A stretch of DNA of 44,522 nucleotides from Thermodesulfovibrio sp. (GTDB taxonomy: Bacteria > Nitrospirota > Thermodesulfovibrionia > Thermodesulfovibrionales > Thermodesulfovibrionaceae): contig JANXBR010000003.1 in assembly GCA_025060625.1 (NCBI GenBank), positions 1 to 44,522 of the forward strand. The letters are read 5' to 3'. The notes below the pieces were generated by a model. It searched no databases, had not been told where the DNA came from, and saw nothing but the letters and a program-made list of their open reading frames with translations. Positions 37,389-43,264 of the stretch are shown piece after piece (position 1 is the first letter of the stretch; the number at the start of each line of letters is the position of its first letter). The position numbers and the translations under genes were made by a program.

Positions 37389-39353
37389 ATGCATGCCGAT
37401 GTAAGAAAAATAATACGGACTCTTGAAGAAAGAAAAAATAGAAATGTTAACTACTTAAAAAAACATGCCCCCCAGCTTCTTGAACTCCTAAAAAAACCCT
37501 CAAAACTTGAAAATACAGGAATTTACATAGACCCAAAAACAGGAGAGATAGACCTTCAGGTTGAAGGAAAAAGAGTTTATGGCGGAGATCCTCAAAAAAT
37601 ATCCATAAAATATATAGAAGATTTTGAAAAAAAAGGATTTAAATTTTATATAAAACCAGACACAGGAACTCAATTTAAAGATACAATGATGGATATGAGA
37701 CACTGGTATGAGTATATTTTGATGGCAAAGGAGGAACCAAGGGTAGAATTTGTTAAAAAACCAATTCAGAAAGGTGATAGATTTGGGACTTTTCTCTGTC
37801 TTGGAATAGGTCTTGGTTATCATCTGATAGAGATTTCAGCCAGATATGACATAAAGCAACTAATAGTTGTTGAAAGAGATCCCGAAATTTTTAAGGCATC
37901 ACTCTTTACAATAGATTGGCAATTTCTGGAAAAATATATGAAAGAAAACAGAACTTTTAATGTTTTCATAAAAGAAGACCCCCAAGAGGCGGCTAAAGAG
38001 GTTGCTCTTTACTGTCAGTTTGTCCTTAATCCACCCTTAAGCTTTGAGATGCCTCTTTTTTACTATTTTGAAGACACTTACTATGAAGAATTCTTTAAAG
38101 AATTTAATAGAAGATTTAGTCAAATTTTTTCAGGATGGGGCTTTTTTCAAGATGAATACTGGTCTGTGGAGCATACTTTGGAGAACATTAAAAAAGAGAT
38201 TCCTCTTTTTTATGGAAAAACCAAAGTTACAGAAGATTCGGTAGCCTTTATAGTAGGTGCAGGTCCTTCTCTTGATGAATCATTGGACTTCATTGCAGAA
38301 AATAGAGAGAAGGCTGTGGTTTTCTCATGTGGAAGCAGTCTTTCTTCCTTACATAAATTTGGAATTAAACCAGATTTTCACATAGATATAGAAAGAACCG
38401 TAGTTACCTATGATGCATTAATATGGATTAATGACCCTGAATATGTAAGAAGCATACCAGTAATTTTTAACAATCCCATGTATCCAGCGGTATCAACACT
38501 CTTTGATGAAAATTATATGTATCTTAAGGAAAATGATGCAGGATGCCTTTTTTTCAAACCTCACATACCAAGACTAATATTTTCAAATCCTACTGTTGTA
38601 AATGGCGGGCTTTCATTCGCAATAAATGCAGGATTTAAGAACATTTATCTTTTTGGCACAGACATGGGTTACAAAGACCCAAAGAGACATCATGCTACTC
38701 ATAATATAGCCCTTGATGAAAATACCTACTTTTATGCCGAAGACCTGGGTAAAGATATAGAGGTGGAGGGAAATTTTGGTGATAAAGTATATACTAATTT
38801 CATTCTAAACTGGGCAAGAATATGGATTGAAGACATGCTTAAGATAGTAAGAGATGTCCGTGTTTTTAACACATCAAAGGGAGCAAAAATCATGGGAACA
38901 ATACCAACAAAAAAGGACGAGATAAGATTGAAAGAATTTAATAAAGAAAGAGAAATAAAGTTAATCAAAGATAGTTTCAGCAAAGAATACTTAGATGAAA
39001 GGGACTATGTTTTAAATAGACTTACACAACTTGAAAGAGAGACTATAAATTATAAAAAGTATTGTCTTTCCCAGCTAAACTCAAACATTAAAAATACAAG
39101 CCAGCTTATGGATGCTTTACATAATATTTTTGTGTGGATTTATTTAAATAAAATTAATAATGGCATGCTTAACATCTTAGTGAGAGGTGGATTTCTTCAC
39201 TATGAGCATCTCGCCCTTTTTATCTGCTATCAAAAGGAAATAAGAGGTATAAACTTCATTAGTGAGACTGTAGATGCTATAAAAAGATATATTGAAGAGT
39301 CAACTTCCATGCTCTTTGAATGCATTGAAAAATATAAGAAAATAATACACTAA
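37389..39353 (+). CDS. maf: Motility accessory factor (Maf, DUF115/MAF_flag10) flagellin glycosyltransferase
   Basis: AFIVGAGPSLDESLDFIAENREKAVVFSCGSSLSSLHKFGIKPDFHIDIER; directly upstream of flagellin. Confidence 0.92.
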   Translation: MHADVRKIIRTLEERKNRNVNYLKKHAPQLLELLKKPSKLENTGIYIDPKTGEIDLQVEGKRVYGGDPQKISIKYIEDFEKKGFKFYIKPDTGTQFKDTMMDMRHWYEYILMAKEEPRVEFVKKPIQKGDRFGTFLCLGIGLGYHLIEISARYDIKQLIVVERDPEIFKASLFTIDWQFLEKYMKENRTFNVFIKEDPQEAAKEVALYCQFVLNPPLSFEMPLFYYFEDTYYEEFFKEFNRRFSQIFSGWGFFQDEYWSVEHTLENIKKEIPLFYGKTKVTEDSVAFIVGAGPSLDESLDFIAENREKAVVFSCGSSLSSLHKFGIKPDFHIDIERTVVTYDALIWINDPEYVRSIPVIFNNPMYPAVSTLFDENYMYLKENDAGCLFFKPHIPRLIFSNPTVVNGGLSFAINAGFKNIYLFGTDMGYKDPKRHHATHNIALDENTYFYAEDLGKDIEVEGNFGDKVYTNFILNWARIWIEDMLKIVRDVRVFNTSKGAKIMGTIPTKKDEIRLKEFNKEREIKLIKDSFSKEYLDERDYVLNRLTQLERETINYKKYCLSQLNSNIKNTSQLMDALHNIFVWIYLNKINNGMLNILVRGGFLHYEHLALFICYQKEIRGINFISETVDAIKRYIEESTSMLFECIEKYKKIIH

Positions 39354-39377
39354 ACTTTTGAAAAACCTATCCGATTA
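39351..39377 (+). promoter_or_regulatory. Sigma-28 (FliA)-type promoter of flagellin gene
   Basis: TAAACTTT-N11-TCCGATTA versus TAAAGTTT-N11-GCCGATAA; begins in the maf stop codon. Confidence 0.75.
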
Positions 39378-39392
39378 ATATAATTAAGACAG

Positions 39393-39486
39393 CTGGATGG
39401 AAAGGAGGTGAAGAGATAAAATTCATCCAGAACTGTCTGGATGCAGGAGGCATCCTAAACAAAAAAAACATGGAGGTTAAACCATG
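39393..39486 (+). promoter_or_regulatory. Structured flagellin 5' UTR with alternative hairpins and repeated GGA motifs (candidate CsrA-type translational control)
   Basis: CTGGATG/CATCCAG, CATCCAGA/TCTGGATG (mutually exclusive), GGATGC-AGGAG-GCATCC, CATGG/CCATG over the start codon; six GGA triplets. Confidence 0.6.
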
Positions 39487-41076
39487 GCATTAAGAATTAA
39501 CTTTAATGCAGAATCAACAGTAACACACACAGCCCTTCTAAGAAACGAAAGGGCAATGAACAAATCCCTTTTAAGGATCTCAACAGGTCAGAGAATTCTC
39601 TCTGCAGCTGATGATGCAGCAGGTCTTTTTATTTCTGACCAGCTTAGCGTTGTCGCAGCAGCTCTTGAACAAGGTAATCGTAACATTCAGACTGGAATAA
39701 GTGCATTACAGATTGCAGAGACAAATGTTGGACAGATTTTTGAGAAACTACAGACAATCTATACAAAGGCACAGTCTGCAGCCAATGATATTAATGACCC
39801 TAATGCTCGTTCAGCAATTCAAAGAGACATTCAAAACATAATTGATGCCATACAAAAGCTTGGAACTGACACTGAATATAATGGAATTAAACTTCTTGAC
39901 GGAACCTTCTCTGATAAAGTAATTCACTATGGTGCAAGAGCAGAACAGACAATTACAGTTGGAATTGAATCAGTTAAGGCAAATGACCTTGGTGCCAATA
40001 TGGTAATTGGTGGAGGTCCCCTTTCCTATGCTGTTGCAGCAAGTGCTGTAGCAGGCTCCTCAGTAAACAATGGATATACAGCCACTACAGGTGCGGTTGT
40101 AACTGGAACAGCTTGGAGATATGATACAGGAGACCAAGCTACTGTAGCAGGTATAAATGTAGGAGGTCAATTAGTCTTTGCTGTTGATGCAAAAGCTATT
40201 GCCAATGGCATAAACAGTTCAACAACCTTACAAAACTTGGGTATTACAGCAAGAGCTACCAACTCAAGCACTGCAACTGCTGAATGGACAGATATACAGA
40301 CATCAACGGGTCAGTCTGTAACAATAAAATTCTTTGTAGGTTCAGATAGTACAGCTGACATTACCGTTACAGTAGGTGAAAATAGTGTTCTTACTCTTAC
40401 AGATCTTGTAACCAAAATTAATACACAGGCATCTGCCAATAATAAAAACATTACCGCAAAAATTGAAAGCGGAAAACTTGTTCTTGTAACAGAAGGTGAA
40501 ACAATAGGATTAGAAGTTTCAGTATCAGCTGCTGCAAGCTATGGAACTGTAACCGTAAACATGGCACAGTTTATGGGTTTATCAGCTGCTACAGTAAATG
40601 TTTTAGCAAATGCTGGCACCGCTGGAGCCTCTGCTACAGGCTCAGCAATTCGTGTTGGTAAACTTGTGATAATGGGCGTTGATGACTTTACATATAACTT
40701 TACAGGTATTTCTACTGCTTCCGAGGGCTTAGGTGTCGCTCCTACTGGAGGTTCTACTTTCAAGAACCTTTACTCCATTGATGTTACAAACAATCCAAAT
40801 GCAGAACTTGCCCTTGATATAGTCAAAACAGCACTGCAAAAGACTGATAAAATTCGTACTCAGATTGGTTCTGTAATCAACAATTTACAGGCTATATGGG
40901 ATGGACAGAAAGCATCATATGACAACACAAAGGAGGCTGAAAACATAATCCGTAACACAGACTTTGCAGCTGAGATGAGTAACTTTGTAACAATGCAGAT
41001 AAGAATGCAGTCTGGTGTGGCTATGCTTGCTCAAGCAAATGCTCTGCCTCAGCTTGTGCTACAACTACTTCGTTAA
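39484..41076 (+). CDS. fliC: Flagellin
   Basis: RNERAMNKSLLRISTGQRILSAADDAAGLFISDQL; C-terminal AEMSNFVTMQIRMQSGVAMLAQANALPQLVLQLLR; variable S/T/A-rich centre. Confidence 0.96.
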   Translation: MALRINFNAESTVTHTALLRNERAMNKSLLRISTGQRILSAADDAAGLFISDQLSVVAAALEQGNRNIQTGISALQIAETNVGQIFEKLQTIYTKAQSAANDINDPNARSAIQRDIQNIIDAIQKLGTDTEYNGIKLLDGTFSDKVIHYGARAEQTITVGIESVKANDLGANMVIGGGPLSYAVAASAVAGSSVNNGYTATTGAVVTGTAWRYDTGDQATVAGINVGGQLVFAVDAKAIANGINSSTTLQNLGITARATNSSTATAEWTDIQTSTGQSVTIKFFVGSDSTADITVTVGENSVLTLTDLVTKINTQASANNKNITAKIESGKLVLVTEGETIGLEVSVSAAASYGTVTVNMAQFMGLSAATVNVLANAGTAGASATGSAIRVGKLVIMGVDDFTYNFTGISTASEGLGVAPTGGSTFKNLYSIDVTNNPNAELALDIVKTALQKTDKIRTQIGSVINNLQAIWDGQKASYDNTKEAENIIRNTDFAAEMSNFVTMQIRMQSGVAMLAQANALPQLVLQLLR

Positions 41077-41125: not shown

Positions 41126-41518
41126 ATGAGGCTGGATGGAATAGAAAAAGAAATAATAATAATCAATCCTTTTAGACAAATAGAGGTAGATGCTATATAT
41201 AATAAATCTCTGCAGAATAACGATTTAGATAGTTTGAATAATCAAAAAAGTTTGATACAAAAAAATTCAAATAATTTTCAAAAAACAGCAATTTCACAGG
41301 AAGAGCTTAATAGATTAATGGATGAGATAAGACATAAATTCAGCATGCTTGAAAAATATCTTAGAATTGATATAGATAGGGAACTTAAAATGACCATATC
41401 AAAAATAATTGATATGAGAACAGAAGAGGTAATCAGACAGATACCACCAGATTGGCTTATAGAAATTTTAAAGAGAATGGAGGAACTTAAGGGTGTTTTT
41501 TATAATCAGGAGGTTTAA
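41126..41518 (+). CDS. flaG: FlaG-family protein
   Basis: LEKYLRIDIDRELKMTISKIIDMRTEEVIRQIPPDWLIEIL; between flagellin and fliD. Confidence 0.78.
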   Translation: MRLDGIEKEIIIINPFRQIEVDAIYNKSLQNNDLDSLNNQKSLIQKNSNNFQKTAISQEELNRLMDEIRHKFSMLEKYLRIDIDRELKMTISKIIDMRTEEVIRQIPPDWLIEILKRMEELKGVFYNQEV

Positions 41519-41520
41519 AA

Positions 41521-42837
41521 ATGGCTGACCTTTACATATCAGGCTTAACAGGCTCATTTGATACAGAAGGAATGGTAAACAAGCTACTTCAGATTAAACA
41601 AAAACCTCTATCACAGCTTGCTCAGAAAAGAGCTCTGGTTCAAGGTAAGGTTTCAAGTTTAAATAATCTTTATGGAGCATTAAGTGGAATGCAAAACTTT
41701 TTCAACAATCTTGATATAAATAGTCTTGTATCCTCAAAAAAAGCCAACTCTTCAAACTCAAATGTTTTGACCGCTACTGCAACAAAGGATGCACCAAATA
41801 TTACCATGAGTATAACTGTAAACAGAGTTGCCCAGACTGAAATAAGAGCAAGTAATCAGGGATTTTCTTCCCTTAATGATACATTTTCCTCTTCAGGAAC
41901 AATGATCCTTAAATATTGGACAGACAGTTCAAATTCTCAAAGTTTTAATATAAATTACTCTGCAGGACAGACTCTTCAGGATTTAGTTAACAGCATAAAC
42001 TCTGCCCAGAAATATGTAAAAGCCTCAGTTTATTATACAGGCACAGACTATAGATTGCTTCTTTCAGAGACCGATGCATCAAACTCTACCTTTGAGTCAA
42101 CTTCTTCAAACTCTGCTATAGAAGTTGAAAATTTGCCCTCTCAACTTGGAAGCCTTGAAACCATTCAGAATGCACAAAATGCCTCAATTAAAATTGGAAA
42201 TTCAACAACTCCTGTAACCTCACCATCAAATACTTTTAATAATCTTCTTAATGGATTGGAAGTAAATGTAAAAGAGACAGGTTCAGCTACTATTACAATA
42301 ACACAGGATTTTTCAAAAATTGATAGTTCCTTTAATAGTTTTGTTACATCTTATAACTCCTTAGTCTCTTTAATTAATCAGATGACTTCAAAAGGTGCCC
42401 AGTTTCAAGGTGACAGCACAATAGTAACAATAAAAACAGGCATGATAAGAATGATTAATCCTATGATCAATGCTGGTTTGATTGAATACTCAGATAAAGA
42501 TGGAACAATAACAATTAATAATCAAGTTCTAAATAACCTTAAAAATTCTAATCCTGAAAAATTGACTGATATTCTCTCAAACTTAAAAAACAACTTTTCC
42601 GCTCAGCTTACAGCATGGACAGGTGCAATAAATACATACAGAAACATTGGTGAAGGACAGATTACAAATATTAACCGAAAGATTTCAGAACTTCAGAGTT
42701 CTCTTGTAAAATATGAAGAAAGACTTCGCAAAGAGTATTCCCAGCTTGAGGCATTTATAAATAAAACAAATCAAATTAGTTCAAGAATTCAAGATTTTAT
42801 GACATCATTATCTGAAATGACGAAAGGAGGCAAATAA
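41521..42837 (+). CDS. fliD: Flagellar filament cap protein FliD
   Basis: ISGLTGSFDTEGMVNKLLQIKQKPLSQLAQKRALVQGKVSSLNNLYGALSGM; C-terminal SRIQDFMTSLSEMTKGGK. Confidence 0.95.
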   Translation: MADLYISGLTGSFDTEGMVNKLLQIKQKPLSQLAQKRALVQGKVSSLNNLYGALSGMQNFFNNLDINSLVSSKKANSSNSNVLTATATKDAPNITMSITVNRVAQTEIRASNQGFSSLNDTFSSSGTMILKYWTDSSNSQSFNINYSAGQTLQDLVNSINSAQKYVKASVYYTGTDYRLLLSETDASNSTFESTSSNSAIEVENLPSQLGSLETIQNAQNASIKIGNSTTPVTSPSNTFNNLLNGLEVNVKETGSATITITQDFSKIDSSFNSFVTSYNSLVSLINQMTSKGAQFQGDSTIVTIKTGMIRMINPMINAGLIEYSDKDGTITINNQVLNNLKNSNPEKLTDILSNLKNNFSAQLTAWTGAINTYRNIGEGQITNINRKISELQSSLVKYEERLRKEYSQLEAFINKTNQISSRIQDFMTSLSEMTKGGK

Positions 42838-42838
42838 G

Positions 42839-43264
42839 ATGACCTATGTAAACTCCTATCTACAAAGTAAAGTAATGGGAGCAGACTCATTAGAGCTTAT
42901 CATTATGCTTTATGACAAGGCAATAGTTTCACTTGAAATTGCAAAGGATTGCATAATTAAGGATATAAATGATCCTGATATGGTAAAAAAGAAAGCAATA
43001 GAGCTTGGAAGAGCAACGGATATACTTTATTATCTCAATGACATTCTTGATAGACAGAGAGGTGGCGAAATAGCCGAAAAACTAAGTGTAATTTACTCAA
43101 TTTTAATAAGTGACCTTGTAAGGGCAAATTTATTCAATGACATAGAGTCAATCTCAAAGTGTATTGAAATATTAAATAACATAAAATCAGCATGGGAAGA
43201 CATAAAAAGACAGACAAAGGAAAACCAGAATGAACCCAAAAGAGCCTTTGCAGGAGCAGTCTAA
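42839..43264 (+). CDS. fliS: Flagellar export chaperone FliS
   Basis: SYLQSKVMGADSLELIIMLYDKAIVSLEIAKDCI. Confidence 0.92.
   Translation: MTYVNSYLQSKVMGADSLELIIMLYDKAIVSLEIAKDCIIKDINDPDMVKKKAIELGRATDILYYLNDILDRQRGGEIAEKLSVIYSILISDLVRANLFNDIESISKCIEILNNIKSAWEDIKRQTKENQNEPKRAFAGAV

Follow-up and report, generated by a model that had tools for sequence, protein, structure and literature searches.

The question raised by this locus is whether, and through which factor, the structured leader of a flagellin mRNA controls translation of the gene behind it. The window, that is the whole 44,522-nt stretch of Thermodesulfovibrio sp. DNA that was analysed, holds a flagellin gene encoding 530 aa at 39484-41076 (Pfam Flagellin_N 2e-36, Flagellin_C 5e-17), followed by flaG (41126-41518), fliD (41521-42837) and fliS (42839-43264), likewise assigned with Pfam; these genes, the promoter and every leader element described below lie on the + strand. 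Among named relatives, Thermodesulfovibrio and other Nitrospirota MAGs are nearest. A sigma-28 promoter is predicted from TAAACTTT (39351-39358) and CCGATTAA (39371-39378), its position placing the expected start of the mRNA near 39385, and the same TAAA...CCGATA pattern recurs 5' of all flagellin genes of the genus and of most of those in the order. A Maf-type glycosyltransferase gene (37389-39353) lies 5' of the flagellin gene and reaches as far as the promoter's -35 box, its stop codon overlapping the TAAA at 39351; sugar-synthesis genes are found farther 5', and together this region is probably a flagellin glycosylation locus. On comparative evidence, we put at roughly 0.88 the probability that the leader belongs to the hag/flaA type of flagellin mRNA leaders, which CsrA represses.

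The leader (39386-39483) folds at -32.8 kcal/mol, compared with -17.8 kcal/mol for its dinucleotide shuffles (z -4.9; 0/200 shuffles as good), and its minimum free energy (MFE) structure holds three hairpins together. H1 (39387-39438) consists of 15 bp formed by 39387-39401 with 39422-39438, with an outer stem AGACAG/CTGTCT and an inner stem CTGGATGGA/TTCATCCAG. Directly abutting it is H2 (39439-39455), GGATGC-AGGAG-GCATCC, a 6-bp hairpin with GGA in its loop that is the predicted anchor site for CsrA. The third, H3 (39469-39486), CATGG-AGGTTAAA-CCATG, has 5 bp and includes the start codon. In the model the stems survive at 60-65 C, with H3 the least stable. The initial annotation had located H2, H3, six GGA triplets in the leader and three segments with pairing potential (segment 1, CTGGATG, 39393-39399; segment 2, CATCCAGA, 39424-39431; segment 3, TCTGGATG, 39436-39443), and all of these are where it put them.

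Conservation of the fold was assessed on an alignment of 14 distinct leaders from the genus. Across H1, H2 and H3, 92.9% of the cells are paired, and sliding the partner columns by 1-3 positions lowers the pairing from 93% to 31-39%. Two-sided changes affect 7 pairs and 13 cells, as against 2.2 and 2.7 in shuffles, with 0/500 shuffles as high. These compensatory changes fall on 4 pairs of the H1 inner stem, the outer stem varying mostly by G-U, and on 3/6 pairs of H2, which is 100% paired in the 14 leaders. Variants of the H2 stem include GCACAC/GTGTGC and GGACGC/GCGTCC around a loop that is constantly AGGAG, and once AGGAA. A search with the leader model R1 matched genus genomes at E values of 1e-22 to 1e-30; elsewhere in the phylum the matches were weak and mostly covered the SD plus ATG only (at groEL-like and other genes), the exceptions being the flagellin leaders L076, L079 and L082. 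No Rfam family scored above its gathering score for the leader, and matches below it were at chance level. The stem enclosing the loop of H1 reaches a combined p of about 2e-14 in the genus; beyond the genus its conservation is no more than suggestive (combined p 0.06, with 2/19 leaders individually significant). In one leader, L101, the putative H1 stem arms (AGGTCC/GGACCT) are separated by about 80 nt that contain a long imperfect palindrome, as if the H1 loop tolerated insertions.

The hairpins had been described as mutually exclusive, and a structural switch or attenuator would follow if segment 2 alternated between segment 1 and segment 3, the latter pairing excluding H2. Segments 2 and 3 do form a perfect 8-bp match in this one sequence. 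Possible on paper, this helix is nonetheless absent from the MFE structure, in which H1 and H2 coexist, and over the 14 leaders it pairs 68.2% of cells, compared with 67.8% in shuffles, one of its positions being kept in only 4/14. Since H1 and H2 covary while the alternative helix does no better than shuffled columns, the two are coexisting hairpins rather than alternatives; the idea of a switch fails on the lack of conservation of the segment 2-segment 3 helix, and we regard it as highly improbable.

The start-codon hairpin fared differently, as H3 is placed as the initial annotation claimed and is present in the MFE structure but is not kept in 2/14 leaders (L007 and L008), and no two-sided changes were found in it. 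H3 is therefore not essential; it is probably incidental, or helpful in some species only. An RNA thermometer, in which heat would open H3 and expose the start codon, could draw on the modelled probability of H3, which is 1.0 at 37 C and has fallen to 0.53 at 70 C, yet the breakage in L007 and L008 and the absence of compensatory changes leave this reading with almost no credence.

What sets these leaders apart is the combination of the GGA-loop hairpin with a particular SD. The hairpin occurs in 14/14 genus leaders (0.20 expected) and in 19/20 leaders of an order-wide set (0.92 expected), and lies about 35-75 nt 5' of the start codon in most of the order flagellin leaders sampled. It was found in 0/30 leaders of a comparison group made up of 30 phylogenetically separate flagellin loci (Aquificota, Thermodesulfobacteriota and others) and in 0/75 other GGAGG-type gene starts from two genomes. 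The flagellins of the comparison group are 39-77% identical over the matched stretch, and their leaders are short. The SD, within ACATGGAGGT (39468-39477), overlaps a CANGGA CsrA motif and is the predicted second CsrA site. In its form CANGGAGG it is the true SD of all 34 architecture-bearing leaders (14/14 in the genus and 20/20 in the order set), compared with 0/30 in the comparison group and 3/75 background SDs from the two genomes. The order set includes L079 and L082, which belong to another order of the phylum, and leaves out, after inspection, four leaders of family f6 (L112, L112b, L113 and L114), the count for CANGGAGG becoming 34/38 if these are included. The four f6 leaders have neither a GC-stemmed GGA hairpin nor the GGAGG SD motif, and no clear sigma-28 box; that their genomes nonetheless carry fliW weighs against the CsrA reading. 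In the f6 genomes G092, G106 and G180 (L112, L113 and L114) there are multiple flagellin genes together with two fliW copies, and further flagellin copies of G106 (L076) do have a GGA hairpin. Taken across leaders, the comparison demonstrates at the level of predicted structure that H1 and H2 stand side by side, with GGA in the H2 loop and CANGGA fused to the SD. In the present leader the H2-loop GGA (39446-39448) and the SD GGA (39472-39474) are 26 nt apart, start to start, which lies within the range of 10-63 nt, best above 18, that PMC7652899 gives for bridging by a CsrA dimer. Hexaloops of the type CANGGANG are a high-affinity CsrA target (PMC4894983).

The factors needed for such control are encoded in the genome. 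Both csrA and fliW were found above the curated Pfam cut-offs, side by side and away from the flagellin locus, with csrA preceding fliW and the pair placed behind a flagellin-like ORF that appears to be of FlgL type. The CsrA protein matches solved structures of CsrA, among them that of the CsrA chain in 5dmb, an entry that also holds FliW, and the FliW protein matches solved FliW structures. In the initial annotation, a genome lacking csrA and stems lacking covariation in relatives had been named as the outcomes that would speak against CsrA-type control; neither occurred, as csrA and fliW are present as neighbours and H1 and H2 covary in the 14 leaders. The association also holds beyond this genome. 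Both genes are present in 7/8 leader-bearing genomes searched, with a partial MAG of 0.9 Mb as the exception, and neither was found in any of the 26 searched genomes of the comparison group (those of all loci other than L017, L033, L036 and L037). Within the order, fliW is present in 47/101 genomes, a count confined to the order and so without the genomes of L079 and L082. The adjacent csrA and fliW, the covarying GGA-loop hairpin and the co-occurrence of the leader signature with these genes strongly support control of the CsrA/FliW type.

The history of the flagellin gene itself bears on this association. A tree built on the first 140 residues groups the flagellins of the genus with those of Aquificota and Thermodesulfobacteriota and separates them from the other flagellins of their order by a very long branch (support 100/100). 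The flagellin encoded at 39484-41076 is thus much closer to the flagellins of these phyla than to those of its own order, suggesting gene transfer, although its leader is of the order's type. An Aquificota-type coding sequence behind an order-type leader indicates that the leader follows the regulator and not the gene: on this sequence comparison its occurrence tracks csrA/fliW, not the kinship of the flagellin gene.

Among the closest known systems is flaA of Campylobacter jejuni (PMC4894983), which shares with the present locus a sigma-28 flagellin mRNA, the antagonist gene fliW in the genome, an upstream stem-loop with GGA in its loop, another motif, ANGGA, covering the ribosome site and a structure kept by compensatory changes; its site spacing of 21 nt is also similar. 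The flaA leader is 45 nt long with two stem-loops; the leader described here, in contrast, is about 98 nt long and has an additional 5' hairpin, H1, with a start-less extended SD. That of flaA is, moreover, a known CsrA leader, whereas CsrA binding is here predicted by sequence comparison. Bacillus subtilis hag (reviewed in PMC7652899) likewise has a pair of sites, about 24-26 nt from each other, of which one lies over the SD (BS1 A51-A55 and BS2 C75-G82, as quoted in PMC8523840), and the FliW partner-switching genes are again present. The passages cited mention no 5' start-less SD hairpin for hag, and we count the order of the genes, csrA 5' of fliW and after the FlgL-like gene, as a further difference from hag as described there. 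No paper on CsrA or on a flagellin leader in Thermodesulfovibrio was found in the literature, subscription papers being largely out of reach, and the searchable literature yielded no description of the three-part architecture.

The part of the leader without a counterpart in these descriptions is the H1 loop. Mostly within it lies GAAAGGAGGTGAA (39400-39412), a start-less element resembling an extended SD, the first two bases of which can pair at the end of the H1 stem; its GAAAGGAGGTGA is complementary to 16S, resembling the complement of the 16S tail. The core GGAGGTG is present in this upstream position in all 14 leaders of the genus, where 0.12 would be expected, and in 16/20 of the order set, where 0.27 would be, the latter count including the flagellins L079 and L082 of another order. 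No ATG, GTG or TTG was found 8-18 nt 3' of the element in the 14 genus leaders, and few in the order. The 5'-proximal position of this SD-like sequence is derived solely from the predicted promoter.

Three functions may be weighed for this element. It could be the SD of a short upstream ORF through the translation of which flagellin is controlled. L079 and L082 would fit, with a GTG 16-17 nt 3' of the element and a similar start TNMGKDAQY, but the lack of start codons in the 14 genus leaders and their scarcity in the order make this very improbable in general, and in the genus we rejected it. The possible leader ORF of L079 and L082 (GTG, then TNMGKDAQY) lies shortly 5' of the flagellin start and 3' of a AAAGGAGGTGA element, and both leaders also have a GGGC-AAGGAT-GCCC hairpin. 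Alternatively, the element could be a third CsrA site, serving cooperative binding or titration of CsrA rather than ribosomes. It presents AAGGA in a loop, and the flaA leader of C. jejuni titrates CsrA (PMC4894983). On the other hand, the CANGGA form that is always present at the true SD is never found in the element in the genus and occurs in only 2 order sequences, and the conserved span, GGAGGTG(A), exceeds what CsrA needs; we consider a third CsrA site unlikely, though a serious competitor. As the relatives without csrA, moreover, have an SD that it matches (AAAGGAGGTG), the element looks, by its sequence, to be of ribosome type rather than CsrA type. We tentatively favour a standby or mRNA-protecting site that would park a 30S subunit near the 5' end of the mRNA, a function to which we give slightly less than even odds.

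A protecting site of this kind is known from cry3A of Bacillus thuringiensis, the STAB-SD of which is a 5' SD-like sequence that binds 30S and blocks RNase J1 but directs no translation (PMC4113751). The resemblance lies in an SD-like sequence near the 5' end, far 5' of the real SD, which is without a start codon here and directs no translation in cry3A; the difference is that the present element sits in the loop of a covarying hairpin of a flagellin leader, in a genus in which RNase J was not found by its C-terminal domain. Could the whole leader then be only an mRNA stabiliser, a 5'-terminal stem with a 30S-binding start-less SD and without CsrA control? H1 does start beside the predicted 5' end of the mRNA, no start codon belongs to GAAAGGAGGTGA, which is similar to the complement of the 16S tail, and RNase E/G is present in 16/16 genus genomes. 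Such a stabiliser, however, leaves unexplained why the leader has a GGA-loop hairpin and the CANGGAGG SD and why both are associated with csrA/fliW, and the nuclease of the known STAB-SD mechanism was not found: RNase_J_C, the C-terminal domain by which RNase J was sought, was absent from the 16 genus genomes and detected in 7 control genomes. We consider a stabiliser alone very unlikely, and a STAB-SD based on RNase J was rejected on that domain search. If the H1-loop element does protect the mRNA, it probably acts against a nuclease other than RNase J; RNase Y was detected in 13/16 genus genomes.

Returning to repression by CsrA, we propose that a CsrA dimer would anchor on the H2 loop (GGA 39446-39448) and bridge to the SD site (GGA 39472-39474), blocking entry of the 30S subunit. 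Export of flagellin would free FliW, which would bind CsrA and lift the repression, so that flagellin would be made, the shut-off lasting until the flagellum is ready. The GAAAGGAGGTGAA element in the H1 loop may meanwhile load and park a 30S subunit near the 5' end of the mRNA, either as a standby that speeds initiation once CsrA leaves or as a guard against 5'-end-dependent decay during repression. The block of initiation by CsrA is well supported by comparison; the parking of 30S by the H1 element we offer as a hypothesis. The more general proposal, that a three-element leader is found across the Thermodesulfovibrionales in which a start-less site in a 5' hairpin pre-loads 30S beside a CsrA-locked SD, and that in the genus it stands before a coding sequence of another flagellin lineage, is to our mind rather doubtful. 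If it were true, the pre-loaded 30S would keep the mRNA protected and poised, and release by FliW would give an immediate burst of flagellin.

The CsrA-FliW-flagellin circuit is known; the third, 5' element is one for which the searchable literature yielded no description. Through covariation and matched controls, control of flagellin by CsrA and FliW is extended to a phylum for which we found no leader study. Related flagellins with and without csrA/fliW, together with distant flagellins bearing the same leader, provide an evolutionary test of the mechanism, and with the conserved start-less SD beside a CsrA-type SD, ribosome standby or the protection of a repressed mRNA can be put directly to the test.
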